A stretch of DNA of 64,000 nucleotides from Shewanella seohaensis (GTDB lineage: Bacteria > Pseudomonadota > Gammaproteobacteria > Enterobacterales > Shewanellaceae), in NCBI RefSeq assembly GCF_025449215.1, contig NZ_CP104900.1, forward strand, positions 4,340,001 to 4,404,000, in the 5' to 3' direction. The notes below the pieces were generated by a model. It was not told the origin of the DNA, made no database searches, and saw nothing but the letters and a program-made list of their open reading frames with translations. A program made the translations under genes and the position numbers. Shown here in pieces: positions 23,453 to 61,129 of this stretch (position 1 is its first letter; each line of letters starts with the position of its first letter).

Positions 23453-24404
23453 GCCATTTTACCCTCACGAAAACCAGTCTCTTAGTGTCGACGCTTTATC
23501 TTGGCCTTATGAGCAGTGTGTTCGCCGCTGAAAGTGTGGATAAACAGTTGCCGATGAGCAGCGATACCCTGCTGCAAATCAAAGTCCAACGGGGCGAAGT
23601 GCAAATTCAAAGCTGGGATAAAAATGAAGTCAGCGTGACGGGCACTCTCGATGAGCTGAGCGAAGGTTTTGTCTTCGAACAGAAAGGTAACAACCTGAAT
23701 ATCGAAGATAAAATGCCACGCCACTATAACGGCAGCGACAATAACGGCTCAAAACTCACCATTAAGGTTCCTAAAACCGTCAAGCTGAACGCCGATACGA
23801 TTTCAGCCAATCTGCAAATCAGCCAGACTCAAGGTGAGCTCGAGCTGAATACCGTTAGCGGTAATATCACCGCCGAGGCACTGGATGGCACACCGACATT
23901 GCACACTGTGTCTGGTGACATCACCACTAAGGGGTTAGCGGGTAAAGTGATGTTAGATACTGTCTCCGGTGAGATTAAAGACTCCCAAAGCAAAGGCGAA
24001 ATCAAATACCGTTTAGTGAGCGGCGATCTCGACAGCCAAACCTTAGCCGATAAAGTGAAAGTCGAGCAGGTTTCGGGGAAATCAAAGCCGACTTAAATAC
24101 CGCCAAAGAAGTCAATGTCCGCACCGTGAGCGGCGACACCCAAGTCTCACTGGCAAAAAGCTTCGATAAAGCCAATCTAGAGAGCGTTAGTGGCGATATT
24201 ATTGTGACATTTGCTGATACACCCGATGCCAATTTCGAGCTCAATGGCGGCCCGGGCGGCAAAATCAAAAATGGCTTGAGCCAAGATGTGCCACAAAGAC
24301 AAAAATACGTGCCGAATGAATCCTTAAGCTTCCAAACGGGTGCTGGTAGCGCCAGTGTGAAGATGGATACCATTAGCGGTAATCTGATCCTGAAAAAACA
24401 ATAG
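23449..24404 (+). pseudogene. Exported DUF4097 beta-solenoid protein, frame broken
   Basis: A signal peptide (SLLVSTLYLGLMSSVFAAES) is followed by repeated LNTVSGNI / LHTVSGDI / LDTVSGEI units spaced about 18-20 residues apart, a DUF4097-type beta-helix. The first frame stops at 24096 and the rest continues from 24126 to 24404. One G added to GGGG at 24075-24078 joins them (VSGEIKADLNTAKEVNVRTV), giving 318 residues with uninterrupted repeats. The gene overlaps the anti-sigma gene and is probably a periplasmic output of that sigma operon. Precise function unknown. Confidence 0.85.
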
Positions 24405-49572: not shown

Positions 49573-50791
49573 CTAAAAAGTAACACGCAACTTCAGTGCC
49601 GCTAGATAAAGGTTATCTTCGGTATTATTATGGGATGGATGATGAATCCATTGGATACTGGGCACTAGAAGTATATGCTTATAGAGTTGCCATTTGTAAT
49701 AGGTTTCCAGTAAATACTGATCGCGATCGTTATTAGCCGTTTGTCCCCAACTGATACCCACACCCACAAAATCACCAGTCTGACTTATTGTATAGCCAAT
49801 GCCTGTACTCAGTGTTTTTTGCTGAAAACTAACACCACGATCAGCAATTCCGAAACGTAAAAAGGGTAACCATTGGCCAAAACGCTGACTTAATGTTGCA
49901 GTAGCCCCCAATCACTTGGAATACCAGCTTCTTTTCGCTCATCCGCATGCCATAAAGTGACATGAATATTATTGGCCCATCGCTCATCCCAAGAACCAAT
50001 ACGCCCAAACTCTAAGTGAGACAGGTGCTCCGAGGTATTAAAGAAGCTATCGAAGGCATCCTCAGGCCGATGTGGATTACCATTGATATCGGAAATACTG
50101 CCTGTAATGTAATAATTACTCGGCATTAACCAACGACCCGCAACACCTAAACCTTGCGCAGGTGTTGGAATCGTTGGATTGGTTGCAAATGCTAGGTTAT
50201 TAAATTCAGTCCAAACATTTATCAAACCATAAACATCGAGGAAGTCAGCAACGTCAATGATACCTGCGATGTAACCAAACTCATTGTTTTTAAAGCTTTG
50301 CCCCCAATAAAGGTTTGTCAACACGGACTTTTTATCACTGAAAGTGGGGCCACTCACACCAGAGACCCCCGCCGACGGCAAAAGTACTTGAGGACTCAAT
50401 GTTGTGCCGATGCGGTGACGATTCTCCACTTTAAAAACTAACCGACCAGGTGCACTCGATTCTGCATCTAAATTCCACGTCCCATATAAGCGTAACGCGC
50501 CCCCAATAGCGCTGGTCTCTGAAGGACTACTATTCAACTGTTGTGCAAGTACCTGATAATCTGCAGCTAAAGATAAATTATACTCAGCGAAAGATGGGAT
50601 GCTTGGCCAGCTAGGATGCTCAGACTTTCTGATGTATTCAATTTCCTTTAGCTGACTTGGCACAGAACTAGGCCCGAGATCCAATTCTGGTTGAGTGGAG
50701 TCTACAGTTTCAGAGCAGACTGGCGCGGAACAAAAAACGACTAACATAAGGAAAAGAGGAAAAGAGGAAAAGGCTTACTCGTAATATCCAT
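49573..50791 (-). pseudogene. OprB-like carbohydrate-type porin, frame broken
   Basis: The larger frame (49890-50747) and the last frame (49573-49911) join when one G is added to the run at 49905-49909 (SDWGATATLSQRFGQWLP). The joined protein ends LYLAALKLRVTF with terminal Phe. GALRLYGTWNLD, NLYWGQSFKNNEFGYIAGII, GLGVAGRWLMPSNYYITGSI and GVGISWGQTANN match the OprB porin pattern. The best ribosome site (AAGGTGAT) precedes ATG 50791, which would supply the start of the signal peptide (MDITSKPFPLFLFSL). That ATG is also out of frame with the rest, next to an AAAAGAGG tandem repeat. Without it the start is ATG 50747 with a truncated signal. Confidence 0.78.
50750..50773. repeat. Octamer tandem repeat at the 5' end of the porin gene
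   Basis: AAAAGAGG occurs twice in a row plus a partial copy, inside the putative signal-peptide coding region on the minus strand. Removal of one eight-base unit, or addition of one base, would put ATG 50791 in frame with the porin. Confidence 0.6.
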
Positions 50792-51211: not shown

Positions 51212-54200
51212 TTATCTTCCTATTGTTCGAGTCATGCGTCTGAACGCACATAACAAACCTAGTATGACACTCCACAGTCCAAAGCTGCCGCCACCCGAAG
51301 AATTCTCCACTTCGGCTTTAAGCTGCACACTGGCTACTGCTGCGGCACTCTTCCCCGTGCTTGTACTGACCACCAGCTCAAACTCCGCCATCGTATCCTG
51401 TGACAATGCAGTCGCCGCAATCTTTAGGATTGATGTTGTGTCACCCGTCAATGTCAACGCAGGACCGGAACGTTGACGCCACTGATATGTGAGCAATTGA
51501 CTGTCACCGTCGAAACTGTCGGCGCCACTCAGCTCCACACTACCAGGGGTTTGCAAGGTGACACTCACATTAAATGCCCCATTAATTTTCGCTACCGGCA
51601 AAGCTTTAACCTGCACAACCTCTGCAACAGTCGTCAGCGTTTTACCCGCGACCGAGTCGACAGAATGCTGCAACTCCAACTTAAGATCTGTACTTTTTTG
51701 AACGCCGCTCGTGTTCAGCTCAAAGCTAAGCTGTTGACCTTGGCTATTTTTAGGCAGTTCGACTTCCCAATTAATACGGTTACCATTGACCACACCACCA
51801 CCCGCATCTTTGACCGAAATCCCCTCAGGTAATACGGTGCTCAGAGAATAATGCTTATCGGCCCCCGATTCATTGGCGAGAATATCAATGGTGTACACAA
51901 GGGGTTCACCGCTGATTAATTGCGCCTTATCCGCACTCATGGTCACATCATCCATACCACGGGTGAGTTCGAAGTACACAGAGCCAATATTGTCAGCGAG
52001 ATTAGGATGCGTCCCTAAGGTAGCCTTAGCAAAGTAGACTTCATTCTCGGCCATCGGCAAATCCCAAGTCAGAGTGAGGTCAAACATTTCACCAGGTGCT
52101 ACCGTAGTGGGAACCACACCCGTTAGTGATGAATCCGTTTTACGCACTTTCACCATAGATATTGAGTGTTTATCTAGGTTATGCGGTGCAGTTCCCTGAT
52201 AGTTGTGTATTACGGCGAGGTAATTTGCTGGCGTTGGCGTCTCAATAAAGCAAGACTCCTTACTGTCTTCACGACCGCTCACGCACACCGCATTGTCCAA
52301 CTCGAGCTGGCTGGGTTTACCGTCTAAATTGCTGTCACGCACGATAAACAAATCCAAATCTGGCGCGTCTGCACTGTTAACCCACACCCCGACCATGGCA
52401 ACGGATGAATTAGTATTCAGCGGAATGACATGGTAGGTTTCTGGATTTTGAGCTCGATACTTAGCGTCAGGATCCCAAGCGGTTTGGCCTTCGACTGTGT
52501 CGACCTTAGACAACCCCATGAGCTGCACCTGCAAGTCATCAGAGCCTATCGAAGCAAAACCCGGCAGCGTAAAGCTGTCTGCATCGCGATGGGCGGTGAT
52601 TTTAACCACCTCTTCAGTTGGTACGTTACCCCCGGTAAATTCAGCCGCAACAGTCAAATGCTGCTCAGGAAAGCCTGAGGCACTCAGTTGGATCTCACCA
52701 AAACTCCACAGGAAGACAGTGAAGCGGTAGGGCTTGCAGTAATAGTCAATTGCTGCGACTGCCCCGCCTTTAATGCAAAACTGGCGGGCGAGACTGCTAA
52801 CATCAACCCCTCGGTTTGACTCTGTGTAGACAAAGTCCAGCTCGCATCGGCGGTTGCGGTGACTGTGCGAGTCCATTCACACTTGGTCAGACACTTCAGC
52901 CCCACCATAGTAGGCAGGTTTAATTGAGCAGGATCGCCCGCTTTTGCGGGATCTGCATCAAGGTAATCCTGTTCGCTGATACGTAATAACAGCCCCGCTT
53001 TGACGGCTTTATCGATTTGAATACGTCCCGCCCCTGCATCAAAGGGCGTTGATGCTTCTTTAATCCCATCACCATCGTCGTCCTTGAAGGTGTTGCTGTT
53101 TGCCGTCGTCATAATTGCCGATTGCGCCTCATCTGGCGTCCAATGTGGACGCAGCGCCGCTAACAGCGTCAGAGCCCCCGCAACGTGAGGACTGGCCATA
53201 GAGGTGCCACTCATAAAGTCGAACTCACGTGGCACAGCAATGCTTGGTTCCACAAAAGGCCATTCGGTTGTGTGGCCGGCAAAGATGTCGACGCCGGGCG
53301 CAGCTATATCGGGAGTAATAGTGCTAGGGATAGGATAGTTAGGGCCTCGAGATGAGAAACTCCCCGCGATATCGCCATTTTCAGGAATATGTATATATTG
53401 CGACTCATTGATAGCGAGCTGATGGTTAGCGCCACTGGCAAGCCACGAGAGTAATGTCTCGCCATCACTCATCTTTAAGTGAATCGCGGGCAACGTATGT
53501 AAGTCCTGCTCGATGTTATCACTGGCAGCATCTACGTTAATCAAGATCAACCCACCAGCACCACCCGCTTGCACATTGCGGCCCTTCTCCACCCGCGCAA
53601 TATCACCACGGCGACATACCACGATTTCGCCATTGAAAGTTCCCGCCCGGAAGGGGGTATTACAATTACCGTCACCAAAGGATGCCGCATCGACGACGAG
53701 GCCAGAAAACGCGTAACTGACACCGGCGCCTTTTAGGGTCGCTAATGGGCTATCGCCGCCAGAAACCCAGCTTAGGGTCTTCTCACTGTAACCTCTGTCA
53801 TGGGTATAGGCTGCAACTGTGGTAATCCAAGGTGAATTTCCGGGCGCGCCAACGGTTTCGGCCGCAGGGCCAGAGTTACCGGCAGCGGTCACGGCATGAA
53901 TGCCTGCACTTCTCGCAGCCAAAAACGCGAATGAATCCGCAGACTCCCATGGGCTATCTGCTGCGCCACCCACTGAATAGTTAATAACGTTAACTCCGTT
54001 TGCCACAGCATGTTCAAGCGCGAGGATAGTCAAATCAGGAAAGCAGCCACCGTAGTTAGGATCCTCGCCCGACTTAGGTAAACAAACCTGATAGGAAATA
54101 ATGTTCGCCCGCGGCGCGACACCACTGACTTTTGGGATCCTAACTTGCGCATCGTCACCGATTGCATTACCCGGCACAATATTTTCAACCGGATTCCCCG

Positions 54201-55035
54201 CCACTGTCGATGCCACATGGGTGCCATGGCCATGCATGTCCCAGCCCACATTGATGATGTCAGGCTTAGGGAAACCGTCATAGATATTTCCAGGGTAATA
54301 CCCACGGAGTTCAGGATAACTAATGACTCCAATCAGTTTGTCATTGCATAAGCCATCATGGTCGACACAGTCGCCAAGATACTTACCTGTGCCTAAGGGG
54401 TTTTGGTGCTGATATCCATCGGATGCCAGAGCCGCAAAAGAAGGATGGTCGGCATCTATGCCCGTATCAATAATACCGACAACCACTCCCTCACCTTTAC
54501 TCGGCGCATCCATTCCGCTGCCATTCCAAATCCCATCGGCGCCAATAAAGGCGGGACCAGTATCGGTCAATAGTCGGCTAAGGCGCATCTTTTCGATTCG
54601 AATGCCAGTCTTGGTAGCTTGCAGCTTCGCAGCTTCCTCCTTCGAGAGTCTCACTGTAGCGGCGTTAATTAAAGTGCCATATTGGTGTTCAAAATGAAGT
54701 GAACGTCCCAATACCGCAGACAAGCTCTTGCGCGAATCTTCTTGCTGCTTGGTCAATTTTTGCAAGTAACTCTGACTCGCAACGTTAGCGAGGTTGAATT
54801 TGGCCGTAGCAGTACTCTCCCCCATGATGCCAGCACTTGGCAGGCTCTTATACGCGAGCGCCAGTGAGGGCTGTGGAAAGTGGATAAAGTACAGATCGCT
54901 GATATCTCGTTGGCGAATACTGGTTAAAGGTTTGGTTTCTGCATTCAATGGCTGTGCGCGATATTTTGTATCAATGGGCTCAGCAATGCTGTGACAACTA
55001 AGAATGGCAATAGCCAATAAACTGAGTCTGAACAC
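51212..55035 (-). pseudogene. Secreted subtilase (S8) with PA domain and GlyGly-CTERM tail, frame broken
   Basis: The N-terminal frame (52684-55035) has a signal peptide and an I9-type propeptide region. A complete S8 catalytic set follows: Asp190 in IIDTGIDADHP, His270 in HGHGTHVAS, Asn387 in TAAGNSGP and Ser612 in SGTSMASPHVAG. A PA domain (about 430-530) is inserted before the Ser block. The C-terminal frame (51212-52876) has beta-sandwich repeats, a PKD-like domain (VELSGADSFDGDSQLLTYQW) and SGGGSFGLWSVILGLL plus basic residues, a GlyGly-CTERM signal. The break lies near 52696-52712 (SLSS to WSFGEIQLSAS). The restored length is about 1274. Confidence 0.88.
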
Positions 55036-55102
55036 GTCTTGACTCCTTAAAAAAAGTAAAGTGAATTCAGGCCACTGCTATCGCAGTGGCCGATTTTTAT
55101 GA

Positions 55103-58100
55103 TTATTGTTTGCGACGCAGTAGGCCAAGCAGCAACAGTGGTAGGACACCAAAGCCTGTTCCACCGCCGCTACTCGAGGCAGGTTTAGCAACCACTTCAC
55201 CGTTAAGCGATGCCGAGGTCTGGTTTACGCCATCGGAGGCAGTAACTTGGGCAACAAACGTTCCCGGTTTGGTTGGCGTGCCCGAAATCATCATAGTGCT
55301 GGCATTAAAGCTCATGCCATCAGGCAGACCCGATACCGCAATCGTCAACTCATCGCCTTCCACATCCGTGAAATACCCTGCCAAGGAATACTCGTAGGAC
55401 TTACCCTCCTCCACACTGAAGGTGCTAAAAGGCCCCTTGAATAACGGAGCAACATCGTTAGCGTTAACAAGGTTGATAATGACGTCGGTGACTGTACCGA
55501 CGATATTGTTACGCTCGGTTTGCACTTTAAGGGTTATAGACTTCAGATTTTCATAATCCAGTGCAGCAGCGTTAGCTACAGTGATTACGCCCTCTGGACT
55601 GACGGCGATAGGATTGCCTGGTATGGCTCCCATTTGCACTATGTTAACCGATGTCCATTGGCTGTTTGCCTCACCGAAGAAACCATTAATGGTGGTCGAT
55701 AACGTACCAATCTCTTTGCCCTCGGGTGTATTTTCCTCTACCTCAAACACCTGATTCGCTTCTACGTTTTGAATGCTACCATCTCGCTGCTGCTTGGCTG
55801 CGATGACCATGTTGCTATTCAGGTCCATCAGTAGGAAGTCTGATAATGAGCAAGCTCCAGGACTAACCGCCTGAATGCCAGCCTTAGTGTTTGGGACACT
55901 CCATGCGCCACCGGCTTCACACCACGAATCTCTAAATGCCCATAACATAGCGCTTTCGTTGGGAGCCAATGTCATTTCCCATTGCCACTGCGCGCCTTCT
56001 GCCCCATCACTATCGAGACGATTCATGTTGATCATCGCAGTGCTGTAACGTTCCTTATCGACGTAATCCCCCGTCGACCAATCAAACTCGCTAGTGACAT
56101 ACTTACTGCCGAATTTCACCGGGTTAAACATTACCGACTTGCCATTCGCCGTCGGCATCACATCACGGTCAGTGCCGATAACAAACGCCATCTGCTGGTC
56201 AAAGGTTGCTGGTGAATTCAAGCCATGGTGATACATGTCTTCTAAACACGCCTGCGCAACGACGGTGTCACCACCTGGGGTAAAGTAGGTCGGCAAAGAA
56301 GAAATTTTGGGGGGAGGAGCTGGCATCCACCACGGATCATCAGAACTGTAGTCCGCGATGACTGTCTGCGGTTTACCATTGTCATCGATATAAACGCGTA
56401 AATTAGCGACTCGCTCAGCGTTGCTAAGGCTGAAATCCACGAAAGGATCGAAACTCTCAGCCAGTCCATACATGTCAATCACGGCTTCAGAGTACAAAGC
56501 GTTTTCAAGCAACATGTCGCCGAACTTATCCATGTGCCCTGAGACTGAAATATCCATAGGTCCATGCATCTGCACCGCAATCGCATATTTTTGACCACTG
56601 ACCGAACACTGTGCTTCGGGCATTACTGCTGCCGCCACATGCTTGATCATATTATTAGTATTTTCAAAACCAGCAGGAAGATTAGGTTGTGATGCAACGA
56701 CAGGAAGCGCCATCATATGGGCCGGATAGGCGTTGATATTGGTAAAGGCCTGTTTAACCGCAAAGGTTTCTTGTGCCCAAGGTAATGTTTTGGGAAGCTC
56801 CCAAATTCCATCATTGTAAGTGTTGAATTCACGGCGAATTTTCCCCTCTGGACGGGGAAAAACTGACCAGCCCATGCTGAGTGTTGGCAGTTGTTCAGCA
56901 CTTAAGGTGAGATAACCGTTAAGCTCAAATTGCTCCCATGCATCAATGCCAAAGTCTTCAGTGTTATTGAGTTTGGACATCGGCAGCTTGGCGGCATCAA
57001 TTTCCAAGATAACAGGCACTGACAAAGTGCTCTTGGCTGGCACAGTGACTTTGGCCGGGAAACTCCAATTGATGGCGGCATTGCCCTCACGGTCAGGGGC
57101 AACCTCAATGGCCAGAGTATAAGTCTTGGCTGAATCACTGTAATTCTTCAGCGCGACTTCTTTTATCAGCCTTGCTTTACCTGATACGAGTTGCTGACCA
57201 AAAGTTAAGTTGGGTTGATACGAACTATGCTCCCACACGGCAACGGGTGAGTTCAGAGCCGCCTCTAGGTTTTCAACCCCGGTGCCAATTTGAGTCACGG
57301 AGGCTCTCTGGCCACTATCACCACGTTGGATAGTATGATTTGCGGTATTGGCCAACAAGGCTTTCACTTCAACTGCCGAGACATCACGGCTGGCTTTTAA
57401 AATCGCAGCCGCAGCCGCCATACGCGCAACCGGGAATTCTTTTTCGCTGGACGCTAAGGTTTGCGCGGCGCCACCCACAAGGGCAACGGTTTCTTCGCTG
57501 GCATAAGTCACCAGATCGGGTTTAAGGGTTTGGATACCACGCACAGGGCCGTGGGGTGTCCATGCAGTGGTTGCCAGTAAATCATCGCTAAGAGACTCCA
57601 CAGCCCCCACTGTTAATGATTCTGCGGTCGCCCCCAAATTGCCAATATTGTATTTCGTTGGCAGCTCGCCGTAATAGCCGGCACTGACCACCACCAACAC
57701 TCCTTTAGATGCAATGCTGTTGACCATAATGTGATCAAAAATCGCGCCGGATGAGTTGGGATCATTCGGATCGTAGTAAGCTGCAAAGTTACCGCCATAA
57801 ACGCTCTGATCCACGACGATGATATTGGCCCCCTTCTCGACGGCATCTTCCATCGCGGCCGCCATATCTGTATGGGAAGGAAATCGCGGAGAAGGACCGC
57901 TTCCCCATGGATCAGACAAGCCCGCCATTTTATAAGCCAACAATTTGGCTCCCGGAGCCTGCTGGTGAATAAGAGATGCGATCATAGTGCCGCGACCAGT
58001 AGGGAACTCAAAACCAGAGACCGGATTGACATAGCTCATGTCACTGTCGAGCGGATTGGGGTCTTCACCCCAGCCAAATTCAGATGAATAGTCGCGACCA

Positions 58101-58738
58101 GCGATAACAAGATCTGTCGGGAAGCCATCAAATTCGGCCGTATTATTGATTTTTGCCTCGTCGTACGCTGCAGCTGTTCCAGCACCGCCCAGTGTCGCAT
58201 GGGTATAATCAATCCCAGTAGACAAAATAGCGATAACAGTTCCTTTACCCGCGAGTGGATCATCACTTAAGGCTGGAGCTTTACCAACAGCAGTTGCGCG
58301 CGGCGCCGAAGTGGTTGCCACTCCCTTAGTCGCAGATGGCATGGCCTTGGAGACTTGTTCAAGCTGTTTGGATTGCAGCGAACTGACAGCCTTAACCTCA
58401 CGATTCGCTTTTATCGTTTGTGCGGCCGATGCCGACATCTCCACATGCAATGAATTTATCGCCTTGCTGCTGGTTGTCAGAATTTTTGCGCTGCTGTCTA
58501 GGCTCTGGATCTGGGCGATAAGTTGCTGCTGTTGCAGTTGTATATCCTGTCGATTCCCACCCTGCCACTCACTCTTTCCCGCGAGTAAGATGTCAAATTG
58601 AGACTTTTCTTGAGTTGAATTCCCCACATGTTGCGGCGCTAATTTACCAAATGCATTCGTGACAGGGCGAGCATCGATGCAGGCTGGCGCCAACGCAATA
58701 CTGATGCAAACACAAAGATGGGACATTTTTATTGCCAT
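55103..58738 (-). CDS. Catalytically dead subtilase-like surface protein with GlyGly-CTERM tail
   Basis: The 1211-residue protein has a signal peptide, a Gln-rich helical prodomain-like region and a subtilase-like domain (about 160-470) that keeps the fold. All catalytic positions are changed: ILSTGIDYTH has Ser173 for the Asp, TGRGTMIAS has Arg249 for the His, VSAGYYG has Tyr355 for the oxyanion Asn, and no GTSxA block is present near 430-440. Long beta-rich regions, two cadherin/Ig-like domains (FEVEENTPEGKEIGTL; FSVEEGKSYEYSLAGYF) and SSGGGTGFGVLPLLLLGLLR follow, a GlyGly-CTERM signal. It lies upstream of the active subtilase with a 67-base gap, probably in one operon. Confidence 0.88.
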   Translation of the reverse strand: MAIKMSHLCVCISIALAPACIDARPVTNAFGKLAPQHVGNSTQEKSQFDILLAGKSEWQGGNRQDIQLQQQQLIAQIQSLDSSAKILTTSSKAINSLHVEMSASAAQTIKANREVKAVSSLQSKQLEQVSKAMPSATKGVATTSAPRATAVGKAPALSDDPLAGKGTVIAILSTGIDYTHATLGGAGTAAAYDEAKINNTAEFDGFPTDLVIAGRDYSSEFGWGEDPNPLDSDMSYVNPVSGFEFPTGRGTMIASLIHQQAPGAKLLAYKMAGLSDPWGSGPSPRFPSHTDMAAAMEDAVEKGANIIVVDQSVYGGNFAAYYDPNDPNSSGAIFDHIMVNSIASKGVLVVVSAGYYGELPTKYNIGNLGATAESLTVGAVESLSDDLLATTAWTPHGPVRGIQTLKPDLVTYASEETVALVGGAAQTLASSEKEFPVARMAAAAAILKASRDVSAVEVKALLANTANHTIQRGDSGQRASVTQIGTGVENLEAALNSPVAVWEHSSYQPNLTFGQQLVSGKARLIKEVALKNYSDSAKTYTLAIEVAPDREGNAAINWSFPAKVTVPAKSTLSVPVILEIDAAKLPMSKLNNTEDFGIDAWEQFELNGYLTLSAEQLPTLSMGWSVFPRPEGKIRREFNTYNDGIWELPKTLPWAQETFAVKQAFTNINAYPAHMMALPVVASQPNLPAGFENTNNMIKHVAAAVMPEAQCSVSGQKYAIAVQMHGPMDISVSGHMDKFGDMLLENALYSEAVIDMYGLAESFDPFVDFSLSNAERVANLRVYIDDNGKPQTVIADYSSDDPWWMPAPPPKISSLPTYFTPGGDTVVAQACLEDMYHHGLNSPATFDQQMAFVIGTDRDVMPTANGKSVMFNPVKFGSKYVTSEFDWSTGDYVDKERYSTAMINMNRLDSDGAEGAQWQWEMTLAPNESAMLWAFRDSWCEAGGAWSVPNTKAGIQAVSPGACSLSDFLLMDLNSNMVIAAKQQRDGSIQNVEANQVFEVEENTPEGKEIGTLSTTINGFFGEANSQWTSVNIVQMGAIPGNPIAVSPEGVITVANAAALDYENLKSITLKVQTERNNIVGTVTDVIINLVNANDVAPLFKGPFSTFSVEEGKSYEYSLAGYFTDVEGDELTIAVSGLPDGMSFNASTMMISGTPTKPGTFVAQVTASDGVNQTSASLNGEVVAKPASSSGGGTGFGVLPLLLLGLLRRKQ

Positions 58739-59051
58739 TTTGCTTCCTTTTTCGATTCTTAATTTTTTGATTAGTTTTTATTGCGAACCACGCCCTTAGA
58801 ACGCACCTAGGGCATCTGAAGCAAATGGATAACAAAATTGTAAAATCGCTTGAAGATCGGCAACATCACATTTGAGTCTCTTTGATGTCACTTTTTTATC
58901 ATTTACTTAAAAGTCATAAGCTTGCACTATCAACAGCCAATGAATACGTAACAATGTGTATCGACTAATATGTTAAAAGTTGACTTGTCTAGCGCAGTCA
59001 TTATTAATGTCTCGTCTAATCAAGCAGCGGGTAATGTAGGTGTTTAGGGGA
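58739..59051. other. Divergent regulatory region, dead subtilase / winged-helix regulator
   Basis: About 300 AT-rich bases between divergent genes hold the regulator promoter (58980-59007) and presumably the protease promoter. No RNA gene was seen. Confidence 0.5.
58980..59007 (+). promoter_or_regulatory. Putative sigma-70 promoter of the winged-helix regulator
   Basis: TTGACT, 16 bases, then TATTAA, ending 33-45 bases before the two possible starts of the gene. Confidence 0.5.
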
Positions 59052-61129
59052 ATGAAGCTCGGTGATTATCGAGTTGGTACGTGGTGGATTGTTGCCCGCG
59101 AGCTAAAACTCATCCGTTACGATGAACAGCATCAGTTGATTGAAGAATCCTTGCCACCTAAGGTGTTTGAGGTGCTGTTAAAATTGGTGACCTCAGCAGA
59201 TCACACTGTCACCCGTAATGAACTGATTGAAGACGTGTGGGCTGGTAATGTCTCGGTGGGAACTCGAGGTATCACCAATGCCATTTACGCCCTAAGAAAA
59301 CTGCTGGATGAAGGCGATGAGCGAAGTATCAACACCATCTCCAAAACGGGCTATCAGCTATTGTTACCAGTCTCTAGGCCCACCGAATCGTTCAAACCTG
59401 ATACCTTGCCTTCAAGCAAGCGATCACGCGTAAACTTTCGCACCATGATGCTAGTCGCTGCGACTTTGGCAGTGCTCTTCCTTTTGATGGTGTCTTATTT
59501 TGTGACCCGCGAGCCAGCTGCGTCCGTCATTCGTTACTCTAAACCCGAACCTATTAGTTATCTTGAAGGCATTGAAGAAACGCCATCAGTCTCACCCGAC
59601 GGTAAGTCGTTGGCGTTTATGTGGATGAAGGACAACGAACCCGCCAGAATTTTTGTGCAATCACTCACAGAGGCCAATGCCACACTACGCCAGTTGAGTT
59701 TTAGTGAATTCAATGAAACGACTCCCACCTGGTCGCCGGATGGCAAGCAGATAGCGTATTTGAGATTGGATGATTCTGGAGCCTGTGAGGTATGGATTAA
59801 AGAACTCAAAACCGTCCAGGAGCGAAAGCTCACAAGCTGCGTTCAAGAGCGGTACCATAAGGCGCTAGATTGGTCCCCATCCGGAAAGTTTTTAGCCCTC
59901 ATAGATGCCACAGCGTCGGGCAATACCGCCGTCTTCCTATATGAGTTATCGAGTGGAAAGAAAACCCAAGTCAGCTTTCCCAAACAAGGGGAGCGGGATC
60001 ACCAATTAGCTTGGGCACATGCCTCCGACACCCTCGCATTTATCAGAGCGCTGGGCACATTTACCTATGATTTATACTTACTGCCATTCGGGGAACAGGT
60101 ACAACGGTTAACCCATGATGAGGTTCCTATACACGGACTGACTTGGGATATCGATGATAAAGGCATAGTATTCAACTCCGTTCGTGATGGTGGACACGCC
60201 TATTGGCGTTACCTCGTCGCCAGCGCCGACATTGAGTTTGTGCACCGTGACCAAACACCTTTTAACATTGTCGCGCTGCCACAATCTAAATCCTATGCCT
60301 ATGTAAAACATGCATCTCAGGAGCAATTGGTCTACATACATGACGCTAAAGAACAAGTTATCGAGTCGACAGGGCGAGACTTATATGGCGTCATCTCACC
60401 CGACCGCCAACAACTTGCCTTTCTATCCAATCGCAGCGGGAAATTTGAGATTTGGGTCAGCGATACATTTGGCAGACAAGCGTTTCAGCTCACCAACTCA
60501 CAAGGCTTACCCGATTTAGCCTCCTGGTCCCCGGACGGACACAGCATCTTAACCGTGGTGGATTCTGCCAATGAAAAACCTAAAGTCATTCAGACTGCAG
60601 TCTCCTCCAGAGAACAAAAACCTTATTGCAGGATGGTTTTCAATATCGAAATCCTGTGTGGGCGGATTCCACAAACACCATAATGGTCTCCAGCAACCGT
60701 GGCGGTGATTGGCAACTCTGGCGGTACGATATTAAGTCGCGCAGCTTCGAACAACTGACCCGCGCAGGTGGCCAATATGGTATCTATATTAAAAACACCT
60801 TGTACTACACGCGCCCTAACACTGCTGGATTATGGCGACAAACCGCATCGGGAGTGGATGAAAACCTAATCCCCGCATTGGCAGCAGATGACTGGGGGAA
60901 CTGGGTCTATCAAGATGGGGGAATCTATTTCATCAAAAGAGATAAAGATGCTGACAAGCTGATTTACTGGAAAGACGGTACTGAGCAGGAAATTCAATCC
61001 TTTGCAAAGGGCAGTATTAAAATTCACCGAAGCCTTTCCATCGATGTAGAGCGAAACATAGTTGTGACTAAGCTGGGAAAACGCGCTGCCAATATTCTCA
61101 CGATCGCCCCGATAAAGGATGGAGCCTGA
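59040..61129 (+). pseudogene. Membrane winged-helix regulator with TolB-like propeller, frame broken
   Basis: The N-terminal OmpR/CadC-type winged helix (about 1-110) has LPPKVFEVLLKLVTSADHTV, TRNELIEDVWAG and YALRKLLDEG. A membrane helix (MLVAATLAVLFLLMVSYFV) and a periplasmic beta-propeller with repeated SPDGKSLAF / SPDGKQIAY / SPDGHSIL motifs follow. The first frame ends at 60683. One A added at the A5 run 60616-60620 continues as TLLQDGFQYRNPVWADS through SSNRGGDWQLWRYD to 61129, giving about 696 residues. Such proteins sense a periplasmic signal and bind DNA directly. Its position opposite the subtilase genes suggests it controls them. Start GTG 59040 or ATG 59052. Confidence 0.85.

Follow-up and report, generated by a model that had tools for sequence, protein, structure and literature searches.

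A stretch of 64,000 nucleotides from Shewanella seohaensis (contig NZ_CP104900.1 of assembly GCF_025449215.1, positions 4,340,001 to 4,404,000; hereafter the window) carries three contiguous genes encoding a pseudo-subtilase (D), an active subtilase (A) and a regulator (R), together referred to as the cassette. We give an even chance to the reading that D serves A as a dedicated, non-catalytic partner at the cell surface, within the R-D-A module proposed below. This reading, which is predicted from sequence comparisons, draws on the adjacency of D, A and R in 40/40 loci and in four arrangements, on the grouping of the cassette A proteins in one clade, on the subtilase domain being the best-conserved large domain of D, and on purifying selection acting on that domain.

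D and A are neighbouring minus-strand genes, with A starting 67 bases past D. A preliminary description, made from the window's letters, had placed two adjacent same-strand S8-fold genes at 51212..58738, and Pfam bore this out (PF00082, cut-off 21.8; 160.4 bits in A and 39.8 bits, a weak but significant match, in D). A structural model of D superposed on subtilisins with a root-mean-square deviation of about 2.0 over about 254 residues, and D was without a match to the PA domain. The gene, its subtilase domain and the codons aligned with the catalytic positions are as follows.

55103..58738, minus strand: D, a pseudo-subtilase of 1211 amino acids (aa), an open reading frame (ORF) with an ATG start at 58738 and one of a 40-member family.
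57326..58249, minus strand: subtilase domain of D, aa 164-471.
58220..58222, minus strand: codon 173 of D, where Ser stands in place of the catalytic Asp; the family has Ser in 22 and Gly in 18 of 40, and never Asp.
57992..57994, minus strand: codon 249 of D, where Arg stands in place of the catalytic His; 16/40 of the family keep His.
57674..57676, minus strand: codon 355 of D, where Tyr stands in place of the oxyanion Asn; 11/40 of the family keep Asn.
57437..57439, minus strand: codon 434 of D, where Glu stands in place of the catalytic Ser (placed by alignment to Vpr, alignment with A and column counts); Ser in 0/40 of the family.

Across the D family the Asp position holds only S or G, and the Ser position holds V, L, D, M, E, F, A, I or G. 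With catalytic Asp and Ser each absent from all 40 proteins, D is an S8 fold without the catalytic set, that is, a non-peptidase homologue. Loss of all four residues, as first described, holds for the window D (S173, R249, Y355, E434) and does not extend to the family, some members of which keep His or Asn. The nearly invariant Arg of the D motif ARxAAAAA (R in 36/40) was considered as a replacement for the catalytic Ser and rejected, because in the alignments with Vpr and A this Arg falls close to the His of SPHVAG, with the Ser position lying five residues before it, at codon 434. Subtilase subfamilies with changed catalytic residues are reportedly the subject of a 2007 study by Siezen, and the retention of His and Asn in part of the family would suit a hydrolase working by another mechanism. 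We consider this extremely improbable for D, which has no constant nucleophile, a variable Ser position and only S or G in place of Asp.

In the A family, Asp, His, Asn and Ser were each kept in 40/40 proteins, corresponding to D190, H270, N387 and S612 of the window A. Thus A has all the active-site residues of a subtilase, and proteolysis by it is predicted. The earlier claim of a full Asp-His-Ser-Asn set and a PA domain (48.3 bits) in one protein stands as to the residues and the domain, and fails in that the window A is not one open frame.

52684..55035, minus strand: A, first frame, 783 aa with a GTG start; S8 domain (aa 181-650) with an inserted PA domain (aa 458-528).
51212..52876, minus strand: A, second frame, 554 aa; C-terminal part with a PKD-type domain and a GlyGly-CTERM-like tail.

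Full-length D was found in 40 genomes in all: 30/129 Shewanella genomes (the present one included), 5/14 genomes of the Ferrimonas group and five more of the order (G203, G279, G171, G197 and G442, in a sample of 394), while a class sample of 369 yielded no further genome with D. With D drawn rightward, 35 loci comprised 16 in which A diverged from D and R followed D, 13 with R, D and A successively rightward, four in which R diverged from D and A followed D (the window, G050, G203 and G442), and two with D, A and R successively rightward. All five Ferrimonas-group loci had the layout of the window, bringing it to 9/40 overall. The pairing on one strand that was first described therefore applies to the window and not throughout the family, D and A being divergent in 16/40. 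In the 24 loci with both genes on one strand, D lay upstream of A in every case, separated by 15-91 bases as measured from first start codons and once by -68. D occurring widely without A had been named as a pattern that would count against a partnership, and no D without A was found (0/40 loci). The suggestion of a dedicated pseudo-enzyme partner thus finds good support in the genomics, with D beside A in every locus and in four arrangements.

Adjacency could in principle reflect neighbourhood inertia, meaning that the genes came together by chance long ago in a single ancestor and that selection plays no part in keeping them so, and the single clade of cassette A proteins and the concentration of 30/40 loci in one genus would be expected from it. 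Yet the four arrangements imply that order or strand changed three times or more, and through all of this the genes stayed contiguous, and D proteins merely about 30% identical still hold the same neighbours. The repeated rearrangement of three genes that nonetheless remain together argues for a functional tie over inertia, an account to which we attach little credence.

A-type subtilases without D were also sampled, giving 33 proteins in 31 loci with no adjoining D; 12 further loci of the order, G157 among them, likewise had no D beside the A-type subtilase. In a maximum-likelihood tree, 35 paired A proteins fell on one side of a branch from these 33 (Shimodaira-Hasegawa-like approximate likelihood ratio test, SH-aLRT, 98), and in a label test none of 500 shuffles scored as low. 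Other proteins were seen beside A-type subtilases without D. At L120 (11032-13989) and L136 (10349-13726) the neighbour was a subtilase from the group nearest D; the L136 protein keeps its D/H/S motifs, and the L120 ORF starts late, so that only its GTS motif was seen. At L112 (12294-16232), L115 (2898-6833) and L119 (11537-15469) the neighbours were large proteins, each some 1,310 aa long and matching A weakly, which may represent a different type of partner.

The origin of D was addressed with a tree of 42 subtilase sequences. D grouped with a set of intact surface subtilases from Shewanella, Pseudoalteromonas and Arsukibacterium, apart from both A and the A-type singles, with SH-aLRT values of 95 to 100 on the separating branches and 88 on the branch joining D to its group. 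The intact subtilases nearest D bear a PA domain where Pfam matches were listed. The 12 comparison sequences came mostly from D's own matches, which biases the tree toward D's relatives; the distance from A is still large. This separate placement indicates that the pair was assembled from two S8 lineages. That D is a decayed tandem copy of A was rejected because of these different lineages and because 30 D ORFs had no BLAST match to the window A pieces at 1e-5. The preliminary description had missed this point, along with the regulator gene and the split of A into two frames.

Beyond its subtilase domain, D carries further beta-rich regions, and the family also carries cadherin-like and Fn3-like domains.

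55739..56911, minus strand: middle all-beta region of D, aa 610-1000 (model m0230e7451893; predicted local distance difference test score, pLDDT, 80.8).
55211..55429, minus strand: He_PIG immunoglobulin-like (Ig-like) domain of D, aa 1104-1176 (PF05345, 51.8 bits).

Comparison of the middle region with the PDB gave no confident match. Cysteines C711 and C831 of this region were invariant among 36 D proteins compared.

Mean pairwise identity was highest in the subtilase domain of D (0.527), followed by the Fn3-like (0.471), middle (0.426), cadherin-like (0.426), He_PIG (0.401) and pro-domain (0.313) parts; the A subtilase domain with its PA insert reached 0.616. Selection on the D subtilase domain was estimated as the ratio of nonsynonymous to synonymous substitution rates (dN/dS) by the Nei-Gojobori method over 39 loci, the window left out, and 19/741 pairs were usable (dS 0.05-1.2 in both genes). 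Values ranged from 0.039 to 0.641, and the four closest pairs gave 0.039-0.058. The D subtilase domain is under purifying selection and is constrained somewhat less than A, as given by median dN/dS values of 0.35 and 0.22, respectively.

These data bear on the alternative that D works on its own at the surface, as a binding protein or adhesin that has a regulator and a lifestyle in common with A and makes no contact with it. The cadherin-like and He_PIG domains and the different lineages of the two proteins are consistent with such a role, and with R adjacent in 40/40 loci, shared regulation alone could hold the three genes together. Against it, the dead subtilase domain is better conserved than the domains presumed to be adhesive, and D was not seen without A at any of the 40 loci. 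We regard an independent adhesin as unlikely.

The part of D preceding the subtilase domain resembles a subtilase pro-domain.

58373..58612, minus strand: pro-domain-like part of D, aa 43-122, with a beta-alpha-beta-beta-alpha-beta order in an AlphaFold2 model.

Block pLDDT in this model (m8baf50d5c1cd) was mostly 82-92 over the region, which we read as a putative I9-like pro-domain. Pro-domains of subtilases are chaperone-inhibitors. D could accordingly be an inhibitor or folding helper of A, its pro-domain or subtilase domain binding A in the periplasm and keeping it folded but silent until the two proteins reach the surface. The retention of the pro-domain-like part in the D model despite the lack of self-cleavage, the position of D ahead of A in all same-strand loci, and the chaperone-inhibitor role described for subtilase pro-domains such as that of CspB (PMC6636752) are in keeping with this. 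Nevertheless, A has a pro-domain of its own (many A relatives have a precomputed match to PF05922, Inhibitor_I9, which falls below the cut-off in L063), D has its own surface-sorting tail and about 700 more Ig-like and beta residues, which exceed the needs of an inhibitor, and the A of G157 exists without D. An inhibitor or helper role for D is, in our estimate, improbable.

Hydrophobic N-termini and hydrophobic C-termini were found in D and A at 40/40 loci, and a C-terminal plan running from Gly/Ser-rich through hydrophobic to basic residues was seen in both proteins at the 35 loci inspected.

58664..58738, minus strand: signal peptide-like N-terminus of D, aa 1-25.
55106..55177, minus strand: GlyGly-CTERM-like tail of D, aa 1188-1211, read from a TIGR03501 score under the cut-off and from comparison of tails.

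Both proteins had been described as ending in GlyGly-CTERM signals; the Gly-rich, hydrophobic and basic plan was confirmed, and the window scores for TIGR03501 (A, 14.5 bits; D, 11.9 bits) lay below the cut-off of 15.5. Among seven relatives, L047 D (23.7), L063 D (16.6) and L063 A (17.1) scored above it, L047 A (13.3) and L074 A (12.9) scored below it, and L124 D and A were not listed. Rhombosortase was present above cut-off in the same genome (184.5 bits) and in 12/12 other genomes tested (11 with D, plus G157). In Vibrio, rhombosortase is reported to cut GlyGly-CTERM tails, after which VesB is attached at the cell surface and not released (PMC6219818). The preliminary description had instead named processing for cell-surface release.

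The third gene of the cassette, R, lies on the opposite strand from D in the window.

59040..60683, plus strand: R, first frame, comprising a PF00486 winged helix, a single hydrophobic segment and a PD40 beta-propeller.
60617..61129, plus strand: R, second frame, with the remaining propeller, located by tblastn with intact relatives from G050 and G203.
58739..59039, between the strands: gap of 301 bases between the divergent D and R genes, delimited by their coordinates and presumed to hold promoters; D and R are divergent in the nine loci of this layout.

PF00486 scored 48.6 bits in the window R, 45.0 in L046 and 33.1 in L063 (cut-off 26.2), and PD40 scored 98.0, 106.6 and 20.0 bits, respectively, the last slightly below the cut-off of 20.9. 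By simple hydropathy, a 19-residue segment reached at least 1.6 in 36/40 R proteins, with a lowest value of 1.37, and no second hydrophobic segment appeared in the 8/40 profiles inspected. R resembles CadC and ToxR in its N-terminal Trans_reg_C winged helix and hydrophobic segment and differs from them in its predicted periplasmic PD40 beta-propeller and in the tie of its gene to a protease pair. At L119 (699-2939) and L121 (13455-15593), proteins distantly related to R (about 140 bits) occur in the vicinity of A-type subtilases that have no D.

We propose that the cassette encodes a regulated surface proteolysis module. R, as a CadC-like one-component sensor with its winged helix inside, one membrane helix and a periplasmic beta-propeller, would sense a periplasmic signal and turn on D and A. 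Both proteins, by analogy with known pathways, would be exported via type II secretion and, after trimming by rhombosortase, would sit next to each other, anchored to the exterior of the outer membrane. There, D would most likely bind A, hold the substrate of A, or both, through its conserved subtilase face and extra Ig-like domains, and by such scaffolding or gating would set what A cuts, or when. The D pro-domain, which could not be removed by self-cleavage, probably remains bound.

The two frames of the window A overlap by 193 bases (52684-52876), a region that contains the frame break, while the A proteins of cassette relatives are encoded in a single frame of 1,191-1,399 aa. By tblastn, the window R (59040-61129) and an unnamed gene at 23470-24395 were also split in two frames, and a scan of 53 relatives' ORFs with a best match of at least 45% identity found four split in the window, across three genes. 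In two further subtilase loci of the same genome (1488452-1489986 and 4673193-4674628), the match to the S8 model is likewise divided between two frames. A porin-like gene at 49573-50747 is also in two frames, as judged from adjoining ORFs only. Since R, the gene at 23470-24395 and the other subtilase loci are split as A is, sequencing errors in an indel-rich assembly are the likeliest cause; alternatively, the splits may reflect real decay of the strain's own genes. Programmed frameshifting was rejected as unlikely for A because relatives have A in one frame and because R and another window gene are split as well.

A set of active and dead subtilases is already known, and the arrangement is in this respect not wholly new, contrary to what had been supposed. 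This clear parallel is the Csp system of Clostridioides difficile, in which CspB is the active member, the pseudoproteases CspA and CspC are required for germination and transduce its signals, and the CspC pro-domain is reported to remain uncleaved (PMC6636752; PMC12880746). The cassette shares with the Csp proteins, as these sources present them, the joint encoding of active and dead S8 proteins. The Csp subtilases carry a jelly-roll insert. The cassette differs in that the Csp proteins belong to one family, are soluble in spores and are partly fused (CspBA), whereas D and A come from different S8 lineages and have Gram-negative surface-sorting tails and a linked membrane regulator. The Csp NCBIfam models scored far below cut-off against the cassette proteins (NF040809, best 24.1 of 1250 bits; NF040808, best 16.9 of 675), and by this measure the cassette is not a Csp member. 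In setting, tail, domain plan, lineage and linked regulator, the cassette departs from the Csp system.

Other comparisons were less close. Vpr-type PA subtilases differ from D, which lacks a PA match as well as the catalytic Asp and Ser. The dentilisin complex of Treponema consists of a subtilase-type surface protease, PrtP, with dedicated partners, PrcA and PrcB, that are not known to be dead subtilases; A scores 45 bits with its model NF033595, for which the cut-off is 300. VesB and other GlyGly-CTERM cargo have in common with D and A the Gly/Ser-rich, hydrophobic and basic tail and a rhombosortase in the genome, although VesB is a single serine protease for which the available portions of these papers name no dead partner (PMC6219818; PMC3237569). 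Ten GlyGly-CTERM proteins of one Shewanella genome include two S8 proteins less than 20% identical, which are not called a pair in the accessible text (PMC3237569). Dead subtilase-like proteins were counted in a 2008 survey of prokaryotic serine proteases, with 8/227 subtilisin-like proteins inactive across 91 genomes, and the sections available to us do not describe these as paired with either an active gene or a regulator (PMC2605481). In the inspected part of the literature listings, with subscription journals mostly outside their coverage, no paper described this D-A pair.

Several observations weigh against a partnership of D with A. In 16/40 genomes the two genes are divergent and there do not form one operon. 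G157 has a cassette-type A, 57% identical to the Gallaecimonas cassette A, with neither D nor R within 20 kb and no D anywhere in its genome after all its candidates were scored; A is thus not strictly dependent on D. The correlation of D and A distances (0.96 over 35 loci) is expected from common descent alone, and that of D and R was 0.91. The 40-locus D and A trees share 23/37 splits and show 10 conflicts between well-supported splits, those inspected being between close relatives. The four lowest dN/dS values of D come from only two groups of close relatives. Both A and R are split in the window, and this strain may carry a broken module should the splits be real. Finally, CspC and CspA bind each other, while active CspB is reported not to have co-purified with CspC (PMC12880746), and so the Csp parallel itself predicts no D-A contact. 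As to the exchange of parts between loci, the final 32 residues of both D and A are identical between L060 (G010) and L056 (G016), yet in its A subtilase part L060 groups with L051/L058, which suggests recombination within the cassette.

More tentatively than the partnership of D with A, we put forward that D and A form a heteromeric surface protease in which D, recruited from a different S8 lineage, acts as a substrate-selecting or gating subunit and is made on demand under a beta-propeller membrane sensor. If true, this would be an enzyme/pseudoenzyme pair on the Gram-negative outer membrane built from two lineages and not by duplication and decay. The cassette offers pseudoenzyme research a bacterial surface model outside the spore formers, with 40 natural examples in shuffled gene orders and, in G157, a cassette-type protease without its partner as a natural control. 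It also makes testable the question of why a dead protease fold is kept under selection beside a live one of another lineage.

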